From positions 124,001 through 188,000 of the forward strand of contig JAHHHH010000001.1 in assembly GCA_019359415.1 (NCBI GenBank): a stretch of 64,000 nt of DNA, in the 5' to 3' direction. Numbering within the stretch: the first letter of the stretch is position 1; every line of letters begins with the position of its first letter. A program made the translations under genes and the position numbers. Of the stretch, positions 14,551 to 28,641 are shown in pieces. Source of the DNA: Iphinoe sp. HA4291-MV1 (lineage in GTDB: Bacteria > Cyanobacteriota > Cyanobacteriia > Cyanobacteriales > Nostocaceae). The notes beneath the pieces were generated by a model. The model did no database searches. It saw only the letters and a list, made by a program, of their open reading frames with translations, and was not told where the DNA came from.

Positions 14551-15645
14551 TCAGTCCAATGGTGTGAAAATATCTTCCGAGTTAGGATTGAGGTAGGGAC
14601 GCTCTATGTCAAGCCCCAACCGCTGAAAGTGTTGGATAATATATTTCATCCGAGCTTGTTTTGATTCATCACCGTTTTGATGAGCTTCAAGCATTGCATT
14701 GGCAACAATTTCGCAGCGGTTTTCTCCAAACTGTTGTTGATCTACAAACTTTAGTTCAGAAGCAGGATGTTCGGCTAACCCAATACCAGGTACGAGTACC
14801 TTAGTAAATATGGGAACCTGCTCCCGAAAATGAGATTTATTTTCTGTGTAAATCGTCTGTAAGACTGGCAAAAGAATTTCTTTATATCGGTAAGACTCAT
14901 CTGGGTTATAAGGAAACTTGAGAAATCCTGAGTTATACAACCTGTAGTTCAAAGGGTTATGTAATACCTCGAAGGCGAAAGGGACTTTCACTTCATTCAA
15001 TTTTGTCGTTAAATATTTCATAGCCCAAACAGCAGCTTCTGGACTGAAGTTGAAGTAAACAACTATTCCCTCACTGTGAAATTTCATAGGCGGTAAACCA
15101 CCTATACCATCGCCATTTGCTCTATACCTATTTCCATGAATATAGCTGGAAGGCAACAAGACTGCTACTGGATCGTTTACAGTAGCAGATTGCAAAGATA
15201 AAGGAAGATGACGCTCTCGCTGGATGTGTAGAATCATCGTATCGAATTCTGCGGCAAGGCTACCATCAGCTTCCTGTCTAATGATGCGATATCCTGGATG
15301 AAAAAAACCTCTCCCATGATTGTTTCTGTCCAGTTGTTCATAAAATTCCCAATCTATTTCTCTGGAATCTATTTCTTGTAGAATTTGTTCGTTCGTCTTA
15401 ATTTCTGAACTGACTTCTGTTGTACGCGAACCTTCAAAGTAAATGCTATATAAAAATTTTGATAATTGAGAATTTAAATATTTGTACTGGATTTCCTGAG
15501 GCATTTTTTGTAGTTGTGCCACAGTAGCAGCAGGAGTTTCTATAGGAGGATAGTGAGGATGACTGATGCGGATTTTTGAGGATTCTATTTGAATGTTGCC
15601 AGCAATATCGTGTAAAGTCTCTTGTAAGGTAGGTGGTAATTGCAT
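14551..15645 (-). CDS. HopA1-family protein 1 (putative split lanthipeptide lyase)
   Basis: 364 residues, ATG 15643-15645. The protein aligns end to end by eye with the second HopA1-like protein (18059-19180): both begin with a helical segment then ISHP.Y.P.E.P, have SFLY.IY..GS-like motif, YERL or YEQLDRNN.G.G.F.PG…RQE.DG, YFNFSPEA, a PF.F.VL.NP..Y.RY.SG block and end with a NRC.I.AN…L..N..DI.TPL. This is the HopA1 family (PF17914), first named for a Pseudomonas effector. In actinobacterial class V lanthipeptides and thioviridamide-type RiPPs a HopA1-like protein works with an APH-like kinase to dehydrate Ser/Thr. Here it lies near two such kinases and a precursor peptide, so I infer the lyase role; it is 725 bp from kinase 1 with a DUF29 gene on the other strand between. 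Confidence 0.75.
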   Translation of the reverse strand: MQLPPTLQETLHDIAGNIQIESSKIRISHPHYPPIETPAATVAQLQKMPQEIQYKYLNSQLSKFLYSIYFEGSRTTEVSSEIKTNEQILQEIDSREIDWEFYEQLDRNNHGRGFFHPGYRIIRQEADGSLAAEFDTMILHIQRERHLPLSLQSATVNDPVAVLLPSSYIHGNRYRANGDGIGGLPPMKFHSEGIVVYFNFSPEAAVWAMKYLTTKLNEVKVPFAFEVLHNPLNYRLYNSGFLKFPYNPDESYRYKEILLPVLQTIYTENKSHFREQVPIFTKVLVPGIGLAEHPASELKFVDQQQFGENRCEIVANAMLEAHQNGDESKQARMKYIIQHFQRLGLDIERPYLNPNSEDIFTPLD

Positions 15646-15786: not shown

Positions 15787-16233
15787 ATGAACCACACAGC
15801 AACGAGTGCTACCTACGAAGGAGATTTTTATGCCTGGCTGCTCAAAAGTGCTGAACTATTGCGACAAGGACAATTCTCAGAACTTGATTTAGAGCAGATT
15901 GCTGAGGAATTGGAAGGCATGGCCAGAAGCGATAAACGGCAGTTGATCAATCGCTTTGCTGTGCTGTTGTCACACTTGTTGAAATGGCAATATCAACCAG
16001 AACGGCGCTCAAAAAGTTGGGAACGAACCATTAGGGAGCAGCGCAAACGCATTTCATTATTGTTGGACGATAGCCCTAGCTTAAAGTATGAAATTGAGCA
16101 AAAGCTTGCGGATGCTTATGAAATTGCTGTGCTATCTGCGGCAAATGAAACTGGATTGGATGAAGACTGCTTCCCCGAAAGCTGTGAATATGCTTTAGAT
16201 CAGGTGTTAGATGCAGGATTTTACCCCGATTAA
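15787..16233 (+). CDS. DUF29 domain protein
   Basis: 148 residues, ATG 15787. Clear DUF29 family member: YEGDFYAWLLKSAELLRQGQFSELDLEQIAEELEGMARSDKRQL…LSHLLKWQYQPERRS.SW..TI.EQR…, helical throughout, no signal peptide. DUF29 proteins are very abundant in cyanobacteria, often in many copies; function is unknown. It lies on the strand opposite to the surrounding lanthipeptide-type genes, splitting kinase 1 from HopA1 protein 1, and is probably an independent gene that landed there. Confidence 0.9.
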   Translation: MNHTATSATYEGDFYAWLLKSAELLRQGQFSELDLEQIAEELEGMARSDKRQLINRFAVLLSHLLKWQYQPERRSKSWERTIREQRKRISLLLDDSPSLKYEIEQKLADAYEIAVLSAANETGLDEDCFPESCEYALDQVLDAGFYPD

Positions 16234-16369: not shown

Positions 16370-17524
16370 TTAAATTGACAGAAACTTTTCTGGCTTGCAT
16401 AGAAATTGTGTAGCAATGAAAAAATATAGCCCCTGGTGACTTAAAGCCATCTCTGGCTGAAGTTGAAATTCTGTTAGGAGTTGATAAATTAAACCAAGTC
16501 CAGCAAACTGAACAACCCGCTTGAGAAATTCCGGATAATCTTCTAAAACCTTTGGATAAGTATTGATATAAGCTTTTGTCATGGCGACAATAGAAGGACG
16601 AACGACTTCTAGAGGGATTGTGGCTAGCTGTATAGATTTTTTGACTTCAATAGCAGGATGAACAATCATACTGTTGAGCCAGAAAAGAAAATAGCCAAGA
16701 ATTGCTTTTCCTAAATCGCAAGCTGGATCGCCCCAACTACATGCTTCCCAATCAACAATCTTAATTAGACTTTGATCAGAATCCTGAATTTCCGTTACTA
16801 ACTTCTCCCAATGTCTAGGTATGAAAATCTTCTGAAATTGAATATTATTGTGTGTTAAACAGCAGTAGCGATGATTCAACACCAGTTCTGTAACAATTTC
16901 CCTTACAGCTTCGGATTGTTGAAAAATACCAAGGAATCTCCAGGAAACAGCTTGAGTCTTCTTTAAACTCTCAGGTTCAATTCTGCTGATAAGATAGTCA
17001 GAAAGATAATCAGGATAAGGAAGTTGATAGTTAAGTTTACATTCTTCCAGTTCAGTCAGAAAAGTGTAGCATTTCTGAGAACTCATCGTCTGTGAATGTA
17101 GCTTTGCTAAAGTCGTTCCTACCAACTCTGCAAGCGCTATTGGCAAAATTGTCTGATTTTCATAAGAACTTTGTAAGGTAATATAATCATTTGGGCATTT
17201 GTATATTAGTATCGAACTGCTGTCATCAAAATGCAGGACTTCTGGAGTGAATGATGAGACGTAATCTAAATCTTTGTGAGACTGCAAAAAATTATAAAGC
17301 TTCCACTCTTTAGAAATCCTAACATCGTGCTCAAGGCTTTTATAATCAGGTGTCTGCTTAACGAATAGCTTCTCCTGCTTTTGAGGAATATCGATTACCC
17401 AATAAAAATTTTTGCTTTGGTTAACGTCAAACTTCAGATAGTCTAAGTCGTCTTTTTGGCATATACCAGCACTTATCAAGTAAGAAAATAAGTTTTGATA
17501 GTTAAGATGAATTGTCACAAACAA
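16370..17524 (-). CDS. APH-like kinase 1, predicted pseudokinase (split lanthipeptide system)
   Basis: 384 residues, ATG 17522-17524. Aminoglycoside-phosphotransferase-like fold, clearly paralogous to kinase 2 (19203-20378): IDIPQKQEKLFVKQ (ATP lysine), EVLHFDDSSSILIYKC, the region CCLTHNN and IVDWEACSWGDPACDLGKAI, then a C-terminal helical lobe with FLKRVVQFAGLGLIYQL. The catalytic loop that should read H-x-D-x4-N reads HNNIQFQK: the catalytic Asp is Asn and the metal-binding Asn is Lys, read directly on the DNA at about 16823-16846. The DFG-equivalent Asp (IVDWE) remains. I infer a non-catalytic or altered partner. It follows the precursor gene after a strong hairpin. In class V lanthipeptide and thioviridamide-type clusters an APH-like protein phosphorylates Ser/Thr before HopA1-like elimination. 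Confidence 0.75.
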   Translation of the reverse strand: MFVTIHLNYQNLFSYLISAGICQKDDLDYLKFDVNQSKNFYWVIDIPQKQEKLFVKQTPDYKSLEHDVRISKEWKLYNFLQSHKDLDYVSSFTPEVLHFDDSSSILIYKCPNDYITLQSSYENQTILPIALAELVGTTLAKLHSQTMSSQKCYTFLTELEECKLNYQLPYPDYLSDYLISRIEPESLKKTQAVSWRFLGIFQQSEAVREIVTELVLNHRYCCLTHNNIQFQKIFIPRHWEKLVTEIQDSDQSLIKIVDWEACSWGDPACDLGKAILGYFLFWLNSMIVHPAIEVKKSIQLATIPLEVVRPSIVAMTKAYINTYPKVLEDYPEFLKRVVQFAGLGLIYQLLTEFQLQPEMALSHQGLYFFIATQFLCKPEKFLSI

Positions 17525-17583: not shown

Positions 17584-17623
17584 TTTCATCATAGAGTTTG
17601 GTGTAACTCTCTCTATGATGAAA
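17584..17623 (-). terminator. Hairpin between precursor gene and kinase 1 (partial terminator or processing site)
   Basis: TTTCATCATAGAG (17584-17596) and CTCTATGATGAAA (17611-17623) form a perfect 13-bp stem with a 14-base loop, 16 bases after the precursor stop. On the minus strand it is followed by only a short T-poor run, so it may be a leaky terminator or an mRNA stabiliser, as often seen after RiPP precursor genes. Confidence 0.7.
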
Positions 17624-17639: not shown

Positions 17640-17855
17640 TTACTGGCAAAGAAGTACGCTTAGGTTGCTAGGATCATTCTGATCATTCTGACAGCCCAAT
17701 AAGCTCACCCCGCTATTTCCTCCTACTATTTGAACCAATTCACTATCAGTCAGTTCATTCAAAAAGTCTTCAGAATCAGCAAACAAGTCAGTTCCAGCGA
17801 CTGGGACATCATTTGTAATGTTATTTATGATGTTGTTATTGTGGTCTTTAATCAT
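17640..17855 (-). CDS. Putative lanthipeptide precursor with two Ser-x2-Ser-x3-Cys motifs
   Basis: 71 residues, ATG 17853-17855, preceded by AAGAGGAA ten bases upstream (good ribosome site). The first 46 residues form an acidic, amphipathic leader (LFADSEDFLNELTDSELVQI) closing with VGG, the double-glycine site typical of cyanobacterial RiPP leaders. The 25-residue core after GG contains SGVSLLGC and, eight residues later, SNLSVLLC, each exactly S-x2-S-x3-C, and each followed by Gln. This is the spacing that gives labionin rings in labyrinthopeptins. The core has no other Ser, Thr or Cys, so every reactive residue is used by the two motifs. Neighbours are two APH-like kinases and two HopA1-like proteins. 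No transporter, protease or LanC-like cyclase is in this window. A real precursor is strongly suggested; ring chemistry is inference. Confidence 0.8.
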   Translation of the reverse strand: MIKDHNNNIINNITNDVPVAGTDLFADSEDFLNELTDSELVQIVGGNSGVSLLGCQNDQNDPSNLSVLLCQ

Positions 17856-18058: not shown

Positions 18059-19180
18059 TTACAAATTCAACGGCGTATATATGTCAACAGAATTAGCATT
18101 GAGGTAGGAACGCAGCAATTCTACTCCCAAAAGTGAGAATTGCTTGAGGATAGAGGTCATCCGCCCCTCTGGAGAGTTATCAAGCGAGTGCCAAGCTTCC
18201 AACAAACCATTAGCAATAATTTGGCAGCGGTTCATCCCAAAGCTTTCTTGTTCTGCAAATTTGCGGTCTGGTTCCTCTGCTAGACTTAGCCCTGGTGCCA
18301 GAAACTTGGTGAATAAGGGGACATCTGTGTGAAAATGCGCTTTTGTTTGTGCGTAAATACTCTCAAGAACCTGCCGGACGGCTTCATAGTTACTTTTCTC
18401 GAAATAGAGAACTCCTGAGTCATAACGCTTGTAATCACCTGGGTTATATAGCACTTTAAAGGTAAAGGGAATTGAGATATCGTTTAACTCGCGCGTCAGA
18501 CTGTCCATGACTGCTGCTGCACCTTCTGGGCTAAAATTGAAGTAAATTCGCACGATTTCTGGCTCGCGGTTTGAATGACTATAACTCCGTGGTCCTGCAT
18601 TGCTCACTGCCATGTAGAACCCGCTTTGCACAAAATTTCTTGGCATTCGGATAGCCACCAAGTCACCTACAGCGGCAGATTGTTCGGCGAGTTGGAGATG
18701 CTTCTCTGGTTGAACGTGTAAAGTTAAATTATTCTTGGTTACAGCAAAAGTGCCATCACTTTCTTGCCTCACCACAGACCAACCTGGGTCGAAATAGCCA
18801 CTACCCCGATTGCTCGAGTGCAATCGTTCGTAAAATGCTATATCTACTCCGAGGCGGGTGTTATTTTCTAAATCCTGGTGCAGTGGCAAATCAGCTGAAT
18901 CAGCGTCTGGTGCCAGAGTTGCTCGCATAGAGCCATTGTAATAGATACCGTAGAGAAACGAGCGCAGTTGCAAGCCAAAATACTTATTCTGAATATCTGT
19001 AGGCATTCGCTGGAAGCGGGCGACGACCTCATCTGGTAATTCCAAAGGTTTGTAATTTGGATGGCTAATACAGAAGTTGGAGTGGATTTGCACATTGCTG
19101 ACGATATCTTGCAAAGTATCGAGCAGCTGTTGTGAAGCAGAATCTGGCTGTTGAGTTTGAGAAGAATTTTCTAGTTGCAT
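18059..19180 (-). CDS. HopA1-family protein 2 (putative split lanthipeptide lyase)
   Basis: 373 residues, ATG 19178-19180, 22 bases after the stop of kinase 2. Same family as HopA1 protein 1: N-terminal helix with QLLDTLQDIVSNVQIHSNF, ISHPNYKPLELP, YFGLQLRSFLYGIYYNGS, YERLHSSNRGSGYFDPG, IYFNFSPEGAAAVMDSL, PFTFKVLYNPGDYKRYDSG and C-terminal NRCQIIANGLLEAW…LNANSVDIYTPL. Length and order of blocks are conserved between the two copies, which differ mostly by substitutions, so both should fold. Tight spacing with kinase 2 suggests translational coupling and a physical pair. The expected role is removal of phosphate from phospho-Ser in the precursor; that is from knowledge of class V clusters, not shown by this sequence. 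Confidence 0.78.
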   Translation of the reverse strand: MQLENSSQTQQPDSASQQLLDTLQDIVSNVQIHSNFCISHPNYKPLELPDEVVARFQRMPTDIQNKYFGLQLRSFLYGIYYNGSMRATLAPDADSADLPLHQDLENNTRLGVDIAFYERLHSSNRGSGYFDPGWSVVRQESDGTFAVTKNNLTLHVQPEKHLQLAEQSAAVGDLVAIRMPRNFVQSGFYMAVSNAGPRSYSHSNREPEIVRIYFNFSPEGAAAVMDSLTRELNDISIPFTFKVLYNPGDYKRYDSGVLYFEKSNYEAVRQVLESIYAQTKAHFHTDVPLFTKFLAPGLSLAEEPDRKFAEQESFGMNRCQIIANGLLEAWHSLDNSPEGRMTSILKQFSLLGVELLRSYLNANSVDIYTPLNL

Positions 19181-19202: not shown

Positions 19203-20378
19203 TCAATCTTGTGCAGAAGGTCTGAATTGAGTGAGTTCTGTAACTGCAGTTCCAAAAACAGTCGCCAAGGATTGTTCCGGGCGACATAACAAACTCTTGG
19301 CAACCTGAAGCATGCAAATCCCTTTATTGCCAAAGGATTTTTGGTACTGAATCATTGCCTGAATCTGTTGAATTAATGCCAACCCCGTAAATTGCACGAC
19401 TCGCAGCAAAAAATTGGGACGATGCTCTAAAATCTCCGGGAAGTTATTGAAATAAGCGCTAGTCAGAGCAGCAATAGAAGGTTGAAGCTGTTCTAGGGGT
19501 GTCATAGCCAGACGCAGAGATTCTTCGATAGTCAGTGATTTACTGATAACTAAGCTACTCAGCCAGATTTGCAGGTAGCTGGCAATGAGCGTTCCCAAAT
19601 CAAAGGCAGGATCTCCCCAACAAGAGCGCTCCCAATCAATCAGCCGTATGATATTGGGACTTTGTTGTTCCCATTCTTGCTCCCAATTGTTGTGTAGGAG
19701 AATGTTGTTGAGTTTGAGGTCATTGTGAGTCAGGCAACAGGGTTGGAAAACATCGGCAAGCTCTCTCATTGCTTGACCTAAGCTTTCGTATCGCTGATAC
19801 AGCTTAAAGAATTTCAGCCCATCTGCAGGCACTATACCAAAAATTTCTGGTCCTATCCGTTCTATACTACGAATCCAGTTAGGCACATGAGCAGGGCTGA
19901 GATTATTAGGTTTTGCCGAGAAGAATTTCTGATAGTCTTGGCGGTTGAAAGTGGCTCGATGGATGGTAGCGAGGACGGTAGCGATCGCCTCGACGATTTG
20001 AGTTGGGAAAACATTCTCCTTGCCGTAGAAATCTGCTAAATCCCGATAGTCATCCAAGTAGCTGAAAACAATAATGGAATGCTCAGCCTCAAAATGAAGC
20101 ACCTCCGGCATCCAAGGTCGAAAATAGCTCAGTTCTGGGAATGTTTGTAAAAACTCTTGAATTCGCCATTCACTCAAAAACTCGCCCGCTGTTTTGCCTT
20201 CTTGATTGTGTCGTTCTTGCTTAATCAGTAGTTGACGACTGTCTGGTAAAGTCAGTAATAAGTTAAAGTTTTTTGCTCTTATCGGCTCAACCTGATACAG
20301 AGCTTCCTCCAACTGAGTACAGAGTCTCTGCTCAACTAAGTAGTTGAAAATATTTTTATCACTTAATACAAATGTCAT
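19203..20378 (-). CDS. APH-like kinase 2, catalytic residues intact (split lanthipeptide system)
   Basis: 391 residues, ATG 20376-20378. APH-type fold: SRQLLIKQERHNQEG (ATP lysine), EVLHFEAEHSIIVFSYL, catalytic loop CCLTHNDLKLNNILLHNN with the H-x-D-x4-N pattern complete, and IRLIDWERSCWGDPAFDLGTLI with the metal-binding Asp. The C-terminal lobe ends FLLRVVQFTGLALIQQIQ, as in kinase 1. Compared with kinase 1, this copy keeps all residues needed for phosphotransfer, so it should be the working kinase. It is the first gene of the minus-strand series kinase 2, HopA1 2, precursor, kinase 1, HopA1 1. Aminoglycoside resistance is an unlikely role given the neighbours. Confidence 0.8.
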   Translation of the reverse strand: MTFVLSDKNIFNYLVEQRLCTQLEEALYQVEPIRAKNFNLLLTLPDSRQLLIKQERHNQEGKTAGEFLSEWRIQEFLQTFPELSYFRPWMPEVLHFEAEHSIIVFSYLDDYRDLADFYGKENVFPTQIVEAIATVLATIHRATFNRQDYQKFFSAKPNNLSPAHVPNWIRSIERIGPEIFGIVPADGLKFFKLYQRYESLGQAMRELADVFQPCCLTHNDLKLNNILLHNNWEQEWEQQSPNIIRLIDWERSCWGDPAFDLGTLIASYLQIWLSSLVISKSLTIEESLRLAMTPLEQLQPSIAALTSAYFNNFPEILEHRPNFLLRVVQFTGLALIQQIQAMIQYQKSFGNKGICMLQVAKSLLCRPEQSLATVFGTAVTELTQFRPSAQD

Positions 20379-26060: not shown

Positions 26061-26493
26061 AGTCAATACCTCCGGGAACACAGAACAAAAAGTTGACCAA
26101 GTGCATTTACCTGAAAATAGCTGTAACTTACAGAGCTTATGCACTTATAACGCTGTTTCAAATAGAAAACAGTATTTTCTATATTTACTACCTAAGATAG
26201 ATGATTAAGTTATATTTTTGTAGGTTCTAGTCAATCAACCTATCTTGAAAGTCTACTTCATAGTGTTGTCTGCGGTTCCAAATATCTCTAAACCGGATTT
26301 TTGCAAGAATTCGAATAATGGCGACATAGTTTCTACAAGAATGTTACAGTTAACTGCTGCGTAACAAGAGACATAAACAATTATGTAAATTTTTCAGATT
26401 TTTCCGGTTGTAGCTCGGAGTTCTCTTTAAAGGTTTGTAGTTTTACGATTTGTGTCACTTATTGGCAGACAACCAAATCAAACTCTGAATCAG
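26061..26493. other. Intergenic region, nothing recognised
   Basis: 433 bp, AT-rich, divergent promoters expected for the pentapeptide gene and the protease. I see no ORF, repeat or RNA signature. Confidence 0.4.
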
Positions 26494-27651
26494 ATGTATA
26501 TGACAATTTTGAAACATCCATCACTAGCTGTTTTTGCGGCTATCCTAACTACCTTAGGAACAGCACAATTAGCTAGAGCGATAGTAACTACAAATGATCC
26601 AGAACTACATCGAGTGGGGACAGGAGACTTTAGTGGTGTTGCATTGATTACTTCAGTCACAGATGATATAAAGTCTTCTTGTACTGGTTCCTTGTTAAAA
26701 GGAGGCTCCCATATTCTTACGGCAGCTCACTGTCTAACAGACACAAATGGTCAATTTCAAACCAACTACGTAAATACAACACAAGCGACTTTCAATTTGC
26801 CTACAGGTTCAGTCTCAATACCTGTTGTTGACTTTTTTGTGCATCCCGAGTATGACGGTGTGTACTATAAAGGCAACGACATTGCTGTTTTGCGATTAGA
26901 GACACCAGCGCCAAGCGAAGCTGAACAATATGACATTTATCGTGATGAAGATGAAGTTGGTCAAGTTTTCACACAAGTAGGATACGGCTATACAGGTACT
27001 GGATCTACAGGGTATGACTCACAAAGTTCTTTAGACACAGCATACTTTGGTCAGAATCAGTTTGATGCCTTGGTAGATGTTTTTGATTCGGTGTATAGGC
27101 AAGAATTTAAGGATTTTCCTGGAGTCGTTCTTGGAAGTCAATTATTTTTTGATTTCGATAACGCTCAAGCAGAAAATGATGCCTTTGGTGTTCACTTCAA
27201 TATCAATGACTTAGGATTGGGAGTTTCTGAATCCAACTCAGCTCCGGGGGATTCAGGAGCACCAGCATTCATTGACAATTTGATTGCTGGTATTACTTCC
27301 TATAGTTTGAGCGGTTCGGGTATTTCTGCTAACGCAATCAGTACAGATATTGATACGCAAAACAACAGCAGTTTTGGCGAATTTTCCTCAAGAACGCGAA
27401 TATCACATTATGCCCAATTTATTGATGATGCCATTGCAGGTAAAATCTCTGCTGTGGCTGCTCAACCGCAATCAGTGACAAAAAGAGCAAGGATGAAGTC
27501 GCTAAATATCAAAAGACAGCAAAGCTTGAAGGAGACTCCAAAAACAGTTCCAGAATCTACCTCCATACTTGGGATGTTAGCGTTTGGTGCTTGTTGTTTG
27601 CTTTCTCAAAAAAAGGTCAAAAGCCGTTGGTGCAAGGTAACCGTTAAGTAG
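26494..27651 (+). CDS. Secreted trypsin-like serine protease with PEP-CTERM tail
   Basis: Start ATG 26494 or 26500 (MYMTILKHPSLAV…); the frame is open from a GTG at 26452 but the signal peptide starts here. About 385 residues. Signal peptide with LAVFAAILTTLGTAQLARA. Chymotrypsin-fold triad: His in HILTAAHCLTD, Asp in GNDIAVLRLE, Ser in APGDSGAPAF. The C-terminus has VPESTSILGMLAFGACCLLSQKK plus a basic tail: a PEP-CTERM sorting signal (VPE, hydrophobic helix, basic end), so the enzyme is probably exported and processed by an exosortase. Substrate unknown. Single gene. Confidence 0.9.
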   Translation: MYMTILKHPSLAVFAAILTTLGTAQLARAIVTTNDPELHRVGTGDFSGVALITSVTDDIKSSCTGSLLKGGSHILTAAHCLTDTNGQFQTNYVNTTQATFNLPTGSVSIPVVDFFVHPEYDGVYYKGNDIAVLRLETPAPSEAEQYDIYRDEDEVGQVFTQVGYGYTGTGSTGYDSQSSLDTAYFGQNQFDALVDVFDSVYRQEFKDFPGVVLGSQLFFDFDNAQAENDAFGVHFNINDLGLGVSESNSAPGDSGAPAFIDNLIAGITSYSLSGSGISANAISTDIDTQNNSSFGEFSSRTRISHYAQFIDDAIAGKISAVAAQPQSVTKRARMKSLNIKRQQSLKETPKTVPESTSILGMLAFGACCLLSQKKVKSRWCKVTVK

Positions 27652-27837
27652 TAAGTAGGGCGCGTTAACGCGGTGTAACCCACTACAGGCGATTTGCTTA
27701 TTTTGATGCGTTACAGCAACTGCTTAGCGCACCCTACTACTTAGTTAGCTGTGGTAAAAGTAAATTTTTGTGACAATTACCCAAATTTTGTGTAAAATTG
27801 GTCCTCAGTAATTTGCAAACATCCTGCTGTAGTGCCA

Positions 27838-28641
27838 ATGATTTGGTCAAAGTCCCAAAAGATGAAATTATCTGTGCAAAAGATTCAACTTTCCTTCGTC
27901 GCCATCAGTTTAACACTTCTTGGCTGTACACAAGTGCAGGCACAGCCTGAAAACCCCAAGAGACAATTAAACCAAAAGGATAATCAAATGATTGCTAATG
28001 TTGAGGGATACGTAAAACCAGAGCCGCTGAACTCAGCTTTGAAAACTCAATTGGAAAAAGCGACATCAAGCCAGCGCGTAACCCTTTCCCTTTATGCTGC
28101 TAATGGTATTTGGTATGAGGCACTAAGCGCTGTAGGTGCACTGCGTCGCACCAATCCACAAGATACGTCTTGGGTAACTCTATTGCAAACTGTTGGTTTG
28201 AATGATATCACAACTGGAGCAAAAGTGGAGTGCTGTAACCTAGTGCAATTTCAAGGAACCTTTTTTGCGACTGGTGGCGGCGGTGGCGGCGGTGGACAAG
28301 GCGGCGGAGGTGGCGGTGGTAGATACGGCGGTGGCGGCGGTGGACAAGGCGGCGGCGGAGGTGGCGGTGGTAGATACGGCGGTGGCGGCGGTGGACAAGG
28401 CGGCGGCGGAGGTGGCGGTGGTAGATACGGCGGTGGCGGCGGTGGACAAGGCGGCGGCGGAGGTGGCGGTGGTAGATACGGAGGCGGCGGCGGTGGACAA
28501 GGCGGTGGTGGTGGCGGTGGTAGATACGGCGGCGGCGGTGGCGGCGGTGGCGGTGGTGGTGGCGGTGGTGGACAAGGAGGATTAGGGGGACAAGACGGAC
28601 AAGACGGACGAGGTGGACAAGGCGGACAAGGTGGCAAATAA
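27838..28641 (+). CDS. Exported DUF928-like protein with a long glycine-rich tail
   Basis: Start ATG 27838 (MIWSKSQKMKLSVQ); GTG 27832 and ATG 27862 are alternatives. About 267 residues. N-terminus hydrophobic, ending LTLLGCTQVQAQ: either lipobox (LLGC) or an AQA-type cleavage site. Residues 70-140 (LKTQLEKATSSQRVTLSLYAANGIWYEALSAVGALRR, then WVTLLQTVGLNDI) resemble the C-terminal half of the cyanobacterial DUF928 family, shorter than usual. From about residue 143 the chain is almost only Gly, with regularly spaced QGG and GRYGG (five period-19 units), then GQDGQDGRGGQGGQGGK. The DNA of the tail is a GGC/GGT repeat that probably changes length by slippage. Surface or extracellular matrix role is a guess. 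Confidence 0.7.
   Translation: MIWSKSQKMKLSVQKIQLSFVAISLTLLGCTQVQAQPENPKRQLNQKDNQMIANVEGYVKPEPLNSALKTQLEKATSSQRVTLSLYAANGIWYEALSAVGALRRTNPQDTSWVTLLQTVGLNDITTGAKVECCNLVQFQGTFFATGGGGGGGGQGGGGGGGRYGGGGGGQGGGGGGGGRYGGGGGGQGGGGGGGGRYGGGGGGQGGGGGGGGRYGGGGGGQGGGGGGGRYGGGGGGGGGGGGGGGQGGLGGQDGQDGRGGQGGQGGK

Follow-up and report, generated by a model that had tools for sequence, protein, structure and literature searches.

Which proteins might close the thioether rings of a lanthipeptide in a cyanobacterium whose genome yields no match to LanC cyclases? This question is raised by lanA, a small gene within the 64,000 nucleotide stretch of Iphinoe sp. HA4291-MV1 DNA analysed here (the window), which forms an operon with two pairs of kinase-fold and lyase-fold genes on one strand in the order K - Y - lanA - K' - Y' (Table 1). 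Translation of the open reading frame confirmed that, as an earlier note on this DNA had claimed, the core comprises exactly two S-x2-S-x3-C motifs, SGVSLLGC and SNLSVLLC, each followed by Gln, and is devoid of any further Ser, Thr or Cys (4 Ser, 2 Cys and 0 Thr in total). Two such motifs were obtained in 0.022% of 100,000 shuffles of the core. The leader, whose end reads FADSEDFLNELTDSELVQIVGG, runs to a double glycine (residues 45-46), after which it is presumably cut; the core that follows, NSGVSLLGCQNDQNDPSNLSVLLCQ, is 25 residues in length. At the level of sequence, lanA is supported as a putative precursor of the lanthipeptide type. As in RiPPs with double-glycine leaders, the GG leader goes together with a C39 peptidase exporter in the genome, where we detected 12 C39 matches, none of them inside the window and the nearest approximately 31 kb from lanA on the same contig.

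Table 1. Features of the lanA operon, with positions given for the window.
Feature	Position	Strand	Evidence and remarks
K, APH-fold kinase, LanK-like	19203..20378	(-)	catalytic loop HNDLKLNN intact; LxmK model 3.4e-22, below cut-off
Y, HopA1/LanY-like phospho-Ser lyase	18059..19180	(-)	PF17914 1.1e-59; equivalents of CaoY Arg187/Lys219 kept
lanA precursor	17640..17855	(-)	71 aa; translation, family models, alignment
lanA leader, residues 1-46, GG end	17718..17855	(-)	translation and alignment; cleavage inferred
lanA core, residues 47-71	17643..17717	(-)	translation and motif count
Motif 1, SGVSLLGC	17691..17714	(-)	in the lanA core
Motif 2, SNLSVLLC	17646..17669	(-)	copy kept in 11/11 precursors
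Hairpin 3' of lanA, possible partial terminator	17584..17623	(-)	13-bp stem; 8/200 shuffles fold equally well
K', APH-fold protein	16370..17524	(-)	catalytic Asp replaced by Asn (HNNIQFQK)
Y', HopA1-fold protein	14551..15645	(-)	aligned Arg187 replaced by V, Lys219 by E

In the window the operon is flanked by what we take to be suf genes (SufD, SufS) on one side and nirA on the other, and an oppositely oriented DUF29 gene (15787-16233, (+)) separates K' from Y'. SufS, SufD, NirA, DUF29 and an OMP-like protein were found in none of the nine other loci of the window type (4.8 to 20 kb), indicating that the position of the operon in the genome is not fixed. By eye, the window also encodes a protein whose long tail carries glycine-rich repeats, GGGGGQGG and GRYGG units (27832-28641, (+)), and, near this gene, a protein that reads like a secreted protease of the trypsin type (26452-27651, (+)). 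A strong stem in the gap between lanA and K' was observed in all nine loci folded, with that of L035 residing in a second stretch further downstream, and its arms vary in sequence among these loci. Possibly, this hairpin would favour the lanA message over that of K' and Y'.

The properties of K and Y are in line with the earlier note, which had called the enzymes class V-like. Y scored 201.6 bits with the HopA1 model PF17914 (cut-off 22.7) and resembles LxmY (chain 9dk1_B, E 3.7e-8), and K scored 44.4 bits with the APH model PF01636 (cut-off 23.2); the match of K to the class V LxmK model reached 79 bits, far below the equivalog cut-off of 315. The catalytic Asp of the kinase is intact in K. 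Y, as expected for a HopA1-family LanY lyase of class V, retains the catalytic residues that correspond to Arg187 and Lys219 of CaoY, which are described as required for phosphate elimination (PMC9486802). We consider it very likely that K and Y make a lanthipeptide. The LANC_like model, which also detects the cyclase domains of LanKC, returned no match in the own genome (95% complete). Hence, the LanC cyclase that marks class Vb was not found there, nor was the three-domain LanKC synthetase of class III, which is likewise absent from the operon. With respect to class Va, marked by LanX and LanD together with AviCys, a decarboxylase is absent among the identified operon genes. Altogether, six of the 16 genomes searched are devoid of a LanC-like match (own, G004, G493, i.e., Nostoc JL33, G463, G055 and G378); in the other ten, the operon and the matches reside on different contigs, and the matching proteins have lengths of roughly 1,000 amino acids and above or are fragments.

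A profile scan of one genome per species (84,980 species) returned 13 loci, seven of them of the window type, and related genomes were searched further in sets of 60, 388 (order) and 218 (family) genomes. Ten window-type loci with a visible precursor, the window included, encode 11 precursors, two of which belong to a Microcoleus MAG; the remaining hosts are Brasilonema (four genomes, counting the own), Rhizonema, Scytonema, Nostoc CHAB 5824, Nostoc JL33 and G055. As far as the contigs reach, the order K-Y-A-K'-Y' was observed in the window and in the nine other loci. The earlier note had proposed an alignment of homologues in which S..S...C should be conserved while other positions drift. When this alignment was run, the expectation held: the S, S and C residues were unchanged in 16 of 16 motif copies, while position 3 is occupied by L, I, V or A, positions 5-6 by L, V or I with one exception, and the linker differs in length and sequence among the 11 precursors. 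However, the presence of two motifs is not the rule: the C-terminal copy occurs in all 11 precursors, the upstream (N-terminal) copy in five. Two precursors, from G055 and Microcoleus, contain an extra Cys outside the motif. The window type is rare: Y' matches with E up to 1e-100 were obtained in five of the 388 order genomes, and, by score, at least nine of the 218 family genomes contain a window-type Y' among the matches listed. In Nostoc CHAB 5824 (L187:5460-6626, also L040) an in-frame stop splits the Y gene, and the precursor has GT at the position of GG in the others.

The second pair, K' and Y', with its lost catalytic residues, was absent from the earlier note, and we think that it is the more important part. 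In window-type loci, Asn replaces the catalytic Asp of K' in 10 of 10 cases, with the second metal-binding Asp (DWE) being retained, and Y' has neither the Arg nor the Lys aligned to Arg187 and Lys219 in nine of nine. When the set was widened to 88 K-type rows, 16 were devoid of the catalytic Asp and formed one tree group (SH-aLRT 100), as did 16 Y' rows (SH-aLRT 100); 15 loci are common to both groups, L038 being without a full Y' and L091 without a full K' at contig edges. Upon addition of seven more K'/Y' loci, the branch between the active copies and the rest received values of 100 (Y) and 99 (K) in quick unrooted trees with long branches. The Asp is absent in the 22 K' rows fetched and present in the other 84 K rows; its loss is a clean mark of K'. 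The aligned Arg187 was found in none of the 22 aligned Y' rows (the window counted; two more are unaligned). Among the 87 other Y rows, it is also missing from 12, and the aligned Lys219 is missing from 13; six Y' rows, in turn, keep this Lys. Consequently, only some Y' can firmly be called a dead lyase.

The dN/dS values amount to 0.18-0.37 for K' and Y' as compared to 0.17-0.27 for K and Y (three comparisons each). K' and Y' are under purifying selection, and the idea that they decay was rejected on these values; they are maintained proteins, probably with a changed job. AlphaFold models built from shallow alignments (pLDDT 52 for Y' and 48 for K') were too poor for use, and a search of PDB sequences returned no match for Y' and one chance-level match for K'. 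The own genome harbors a second active-plus-inactive K/Y system (L078, contig C76, 4938-10707) with three tandem Cys-rich precursors of a different pattern, the GGSIVCVGGSVACSVIIIANSC type.

The presence of K' was then compared with the composition of the adjacent precursor. HopA1 loci came from three sources: 100 genomes sampled evenly across the order, of which 26 gave a total of 51 matches (one short fragment left out), parts of the family searches (among the matches listed) and the loci already found. The counted set comprises 64 HopA1 loci that have a same-strand precursor no more than 2 kb away. K' is present in 23 of them and absent in 41, where loci without a detected K gene were counted as being without K'; a further 30 loci without K' and without a same-strand precursor within 2 kb stand outside the 41. 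Duplicates (L187-L190, identical to L040, L039, L041 and L037), the other contig half of L094 (L083), L139 on the contig of L092, the fragments L101 and L206, and L091 and L191, located at a contig edge with no precursor in view, were dropped. The precursors of L039, L040 and L093, which had been missed by the search pattern, and the window's own were added by hand.

A core containing Cys was observed in 23 of 23 loci with K' versus 15 of 41 without (Fisher 1.2e-7), and the pattern S-x2-S-x2-3-C in 16 of 23 versus one of 41 (Fisher 7e-9), the latter being a Lys/Ser repeat; both P values are too small, because the set was deliberately enriched in K' and ten of the 23 K' loci are orthologues. 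By tree reading, K' comprises about nine lineages. Among the 13 K' loci outside the window type, six have S-x2-S-x2-3-C, a number not attained in any of 5,000 shuffles (mean 0.87). In the 15 loci with a Cys core and no K', one of which is L097 with two S-x-[TS]-x-C, the motif occurs at chance (one; shuffle mean 1.5). The six motif-bearing loci, e.g., L192 (STFSGGC and STWSNGC) and L198 (SNTSNTC and SNTSYTC), fall together with the window type into a single Y' group (SH-aLRT 99) and likewise a single K' group (89). The other K'/Y' groups, comprising the C76 type of the own genome, L102, L195, L196 and L197, have Cys cores with other patterns. Thus, the ring pattern of the precursor covaries with the K'/Y' lineage.

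The survey also revealed HopA1/APH loci of other kinds. Ten pairs form a separate group (L085, L095, L099, L103, L105, L114, L140, L143, L146 and L149), in which the kinase Asp is kept and Gln or Glu replaces Lys219 of the lyase; no precursor was seen within 2 kb of any of these pairs, and this group may serve a job other than peptide modification. In L098, L106, L113, L141, L148 and L150, three to six tandem precursors without Cys, many with a KSFS-like C-terminal end, are located beside active K/Y pairs and may give rise to dehydrated, uncyclised peptides. Read-through of stop codons inside some HopA1 matches was considered and dropped, as the genes of L194 and L200 are intact open reading frames; the matches seem to run past the gene end.

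Which type of ring would be formed? A likeness of lanA to SapB is suggested by Pfam and NCBIfam models. The own precursor scored 24.4 bits with RamS, the Pfam model of the SapB precursor (cut-off 24.3), and 23.6 bits with the NCBIfam SapB/AmfS model NF033212 (cut-off 25). The precursor of Nostoc JL33 reached 31.4 bits with the latter model (29.6 for the core alone), and the cores of Scytonema, Rhizonema, the own genome and G004 27.9, 24.1, 22.3 and 15.6 bits, respectively, so that two of the five precursors scored passed its cut-off. Within the 11-member alignment, seven precursors matched RamS and five the SapB/AmfS model at E up to 1; ten precursors from other K'/Y' loci yielded no match to the SapB/AmfS model at E up to 0.1. 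The S-x2-S-x3-C motif, present in all 11 precursors, is the labionin precursor motif, and labyrinthopeptin cores show this spacing twice (SDWSLWEC, STGSLFAC); it does not distinguish between labionin and lanthionine plus dehydroalanine. Two lanthionines are described for SapB and AmfS and labionins for rochsin and durhapeptin, and the same synthetase group is described to yield Lan-only, Lab-only or mixed products, making the ring type hard to predict (PMC13380574). As the motif is common to lanthionine peptides of the SapB/AmfS type and two relatives pass the cut-off, labionin is unreadable from sequence. Hence, of the earlier claim of two labionin or lanthionine/dehydroalanine systems, the lanthipeptide-type precursor stands, while labionin is not established; we hold labionin rather than lanthionine in the product as a tentative option.

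Taken together, we favour, on sequence rather than on chemistry, a pathway of the class V type with lanA as the precursor, in which K and Y would dehydrate and K' and Y' would probably close or steer the rings. As judged from the biochemistry of the family, a K/Y complex would bind the leader, K would phosphorylate the four core serines, and Y would eliminate the phosphate to generate four dehydroalanines; CaoK/CaoY (PMC9486802) and LxmK/LxmY (PMC12141560) are reported to perform the dehydration in their pathways. For the core, monoisotopic masses of 2617.21 (linear) and 2545.17 Da (four dehydrations) are predicted. We newly propose that K' and Y' could act as a cyclase or ring-steering scaffold, which would link the Cys of each S-x2-S-x3-C to the residues derived from the serines of that motif, by lanthionine plus dehydroalanine or by labionin. 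The pair could still bind leader and core, would probably no longer phosphorylate, and might most simply be used to hold the dehydrated core and to promote or steer the addition of Cys. This idea is reasonable given the precedent of RosX, a kinase-fold protein without kinase residues reported to close AviMeCys rings (PMC12291118). Formation of AviCys was set aside, since LanD was not seen among the operon genes and most cores continue beyond their last Cys. An unlinked double-glycine (C39) exporter would remove the leader and export the peptide, plausibly a small, hydrophobic, SapB/AmfS-like product with surface activity or a signalling role. On balance, we lean towards K' and Y' being needed for proper ring formation. 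More speculatively, cyanobacteria may have evolved a new lanthionine or labionin cyclase from a duplicated and then disabled kinase-lyase dehydratase (K'/Y'), and might so make SapB-like ring peptides without a LanC domain.

The main rival to the cyclase idea is closure under substrate control, because the rosin lanthionine is described to form in this way, with help from RosK/RosY and no dedicated cyclase (PMC12291118). K and Y would then make dehydroalanines to which Cys adds alone, and the role of K' and Y' would be one of regulation or chaperoning, in which they keep hold of the leader, shield reactive intermediates or pass the peptide on to the exporter. For RosX-like proteins, protection of an intermediate is described as well (PMC12291118), and the 15 Cys cores beside HopA1 genes without K' point in the same direction. 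However, K' and Y' are present only where the core has Cys (23/23), and the covariation of ring pattern and K'/Y' lineage fits a ring-acting part better than a general helper; we regard substrate control as rather unlikely.

The Lys219 kept in six Y' rows and the second metal-binding Asp of window-type K' would be consistent with K' and Y' being an additional dehydratase, specialised for example on one Ser per motif, whose active site is unusual. This reading is improbable, considering that the catalytic Asp is absent from every row of the K' group, that C76-type K' is also without much of the N-lobe, and that an association with Cys would be difficult to account for in a dehydratase. Still far less credible is a decaying relic that makes nothing: the residues lost from K' and Y', the defects of Nostoc CHAB 5824 (stop in Y, GT for GG) and the rarity of the operon (Y' in 5/388 order genomes at the threshold given above) would fit such a relic, but the losses are common to whole groups, the dN/dS values of K' and Y' argue against decay, the motif residues are invariant in 11 of 11 precursors, and the post-lanA hairpin is found in all nine loci folded despite differing arms.

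How class V thioether rings are closed without LanC has been answered only in part, by RosX for AviMeCys, and K' and Y', found only beside precursors containing Cys, are a concrete, testable candidate for this step. If the proposal is true, one fold pair dehydrates in one copy and closes rings in the other, with its lineages setting the ring type. Moreover, two kinds of bacteria that are filamentous and differentiate would make a SapB-like core with two different synthetase architectures, and a role in surface growth or development would be directly testable.

Like SapB and AmfS, which are class III products of the synthetases RamC and AmfT, the lanA core matches the RamS and SapB/AmfS models; unlike them, the operon has no LanKC-type synthetase, the leader is of a different type, and four window-type genomes (own, G004, G055 and G493) contain no LanC-like match. 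With labyrinthopeptins (LabKC), compared by the strings given in the earlier note, lanA shares the repeated S-x2-S-x3-C; the enzymes are of a different kind, and labionin is only a candidate here. Labionin peptides are described as almost all arising from class III LanKC enzymes (PMC10604976). A 2025 review places class V lanthipeptides so far only in actinobacteria (PMC12328550), whereas 'type-B' class V LanA ORFs, linked to LanK/LanY and all cyanobacterial, were reported in 2022 (PMC9486802). As a small cyanobacterial ORF with Cys and Ser/Thr beside LanK/LanY, lanA may be one of them; the second, inactive pair and S-x2-S-x3-C set it apart from type-B as described in the text of that paper (PMC9486802). 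The earlier note had regarded the combination as new, which has to be narrowed with respect to these precursors; new here is the K'/Y' pair with its lost residues. Neither the operon nor the inactive pair is reported in the titles and abstract openings among the matches listed by full-text literature searches, outside of which most subscription literature lies. The closest resemblance is to cacaoidin, lexapeptide and rosin of class V, described with a stand-alone APH-type kinase and a HopA1-type lyase beside the precursor and, in LanX, with a further kinase-fold protein without kinase residues (PMC9486802; PMC12291118); as in class V, the own genome is without LanC. The lanA system differs from class V in its GG leader, its cyanobacterial host and its operon, in which LanD was not seen among the genes and the extra kinase-fold protein K' is paired with a lyase-fold partner of its own, Y'.
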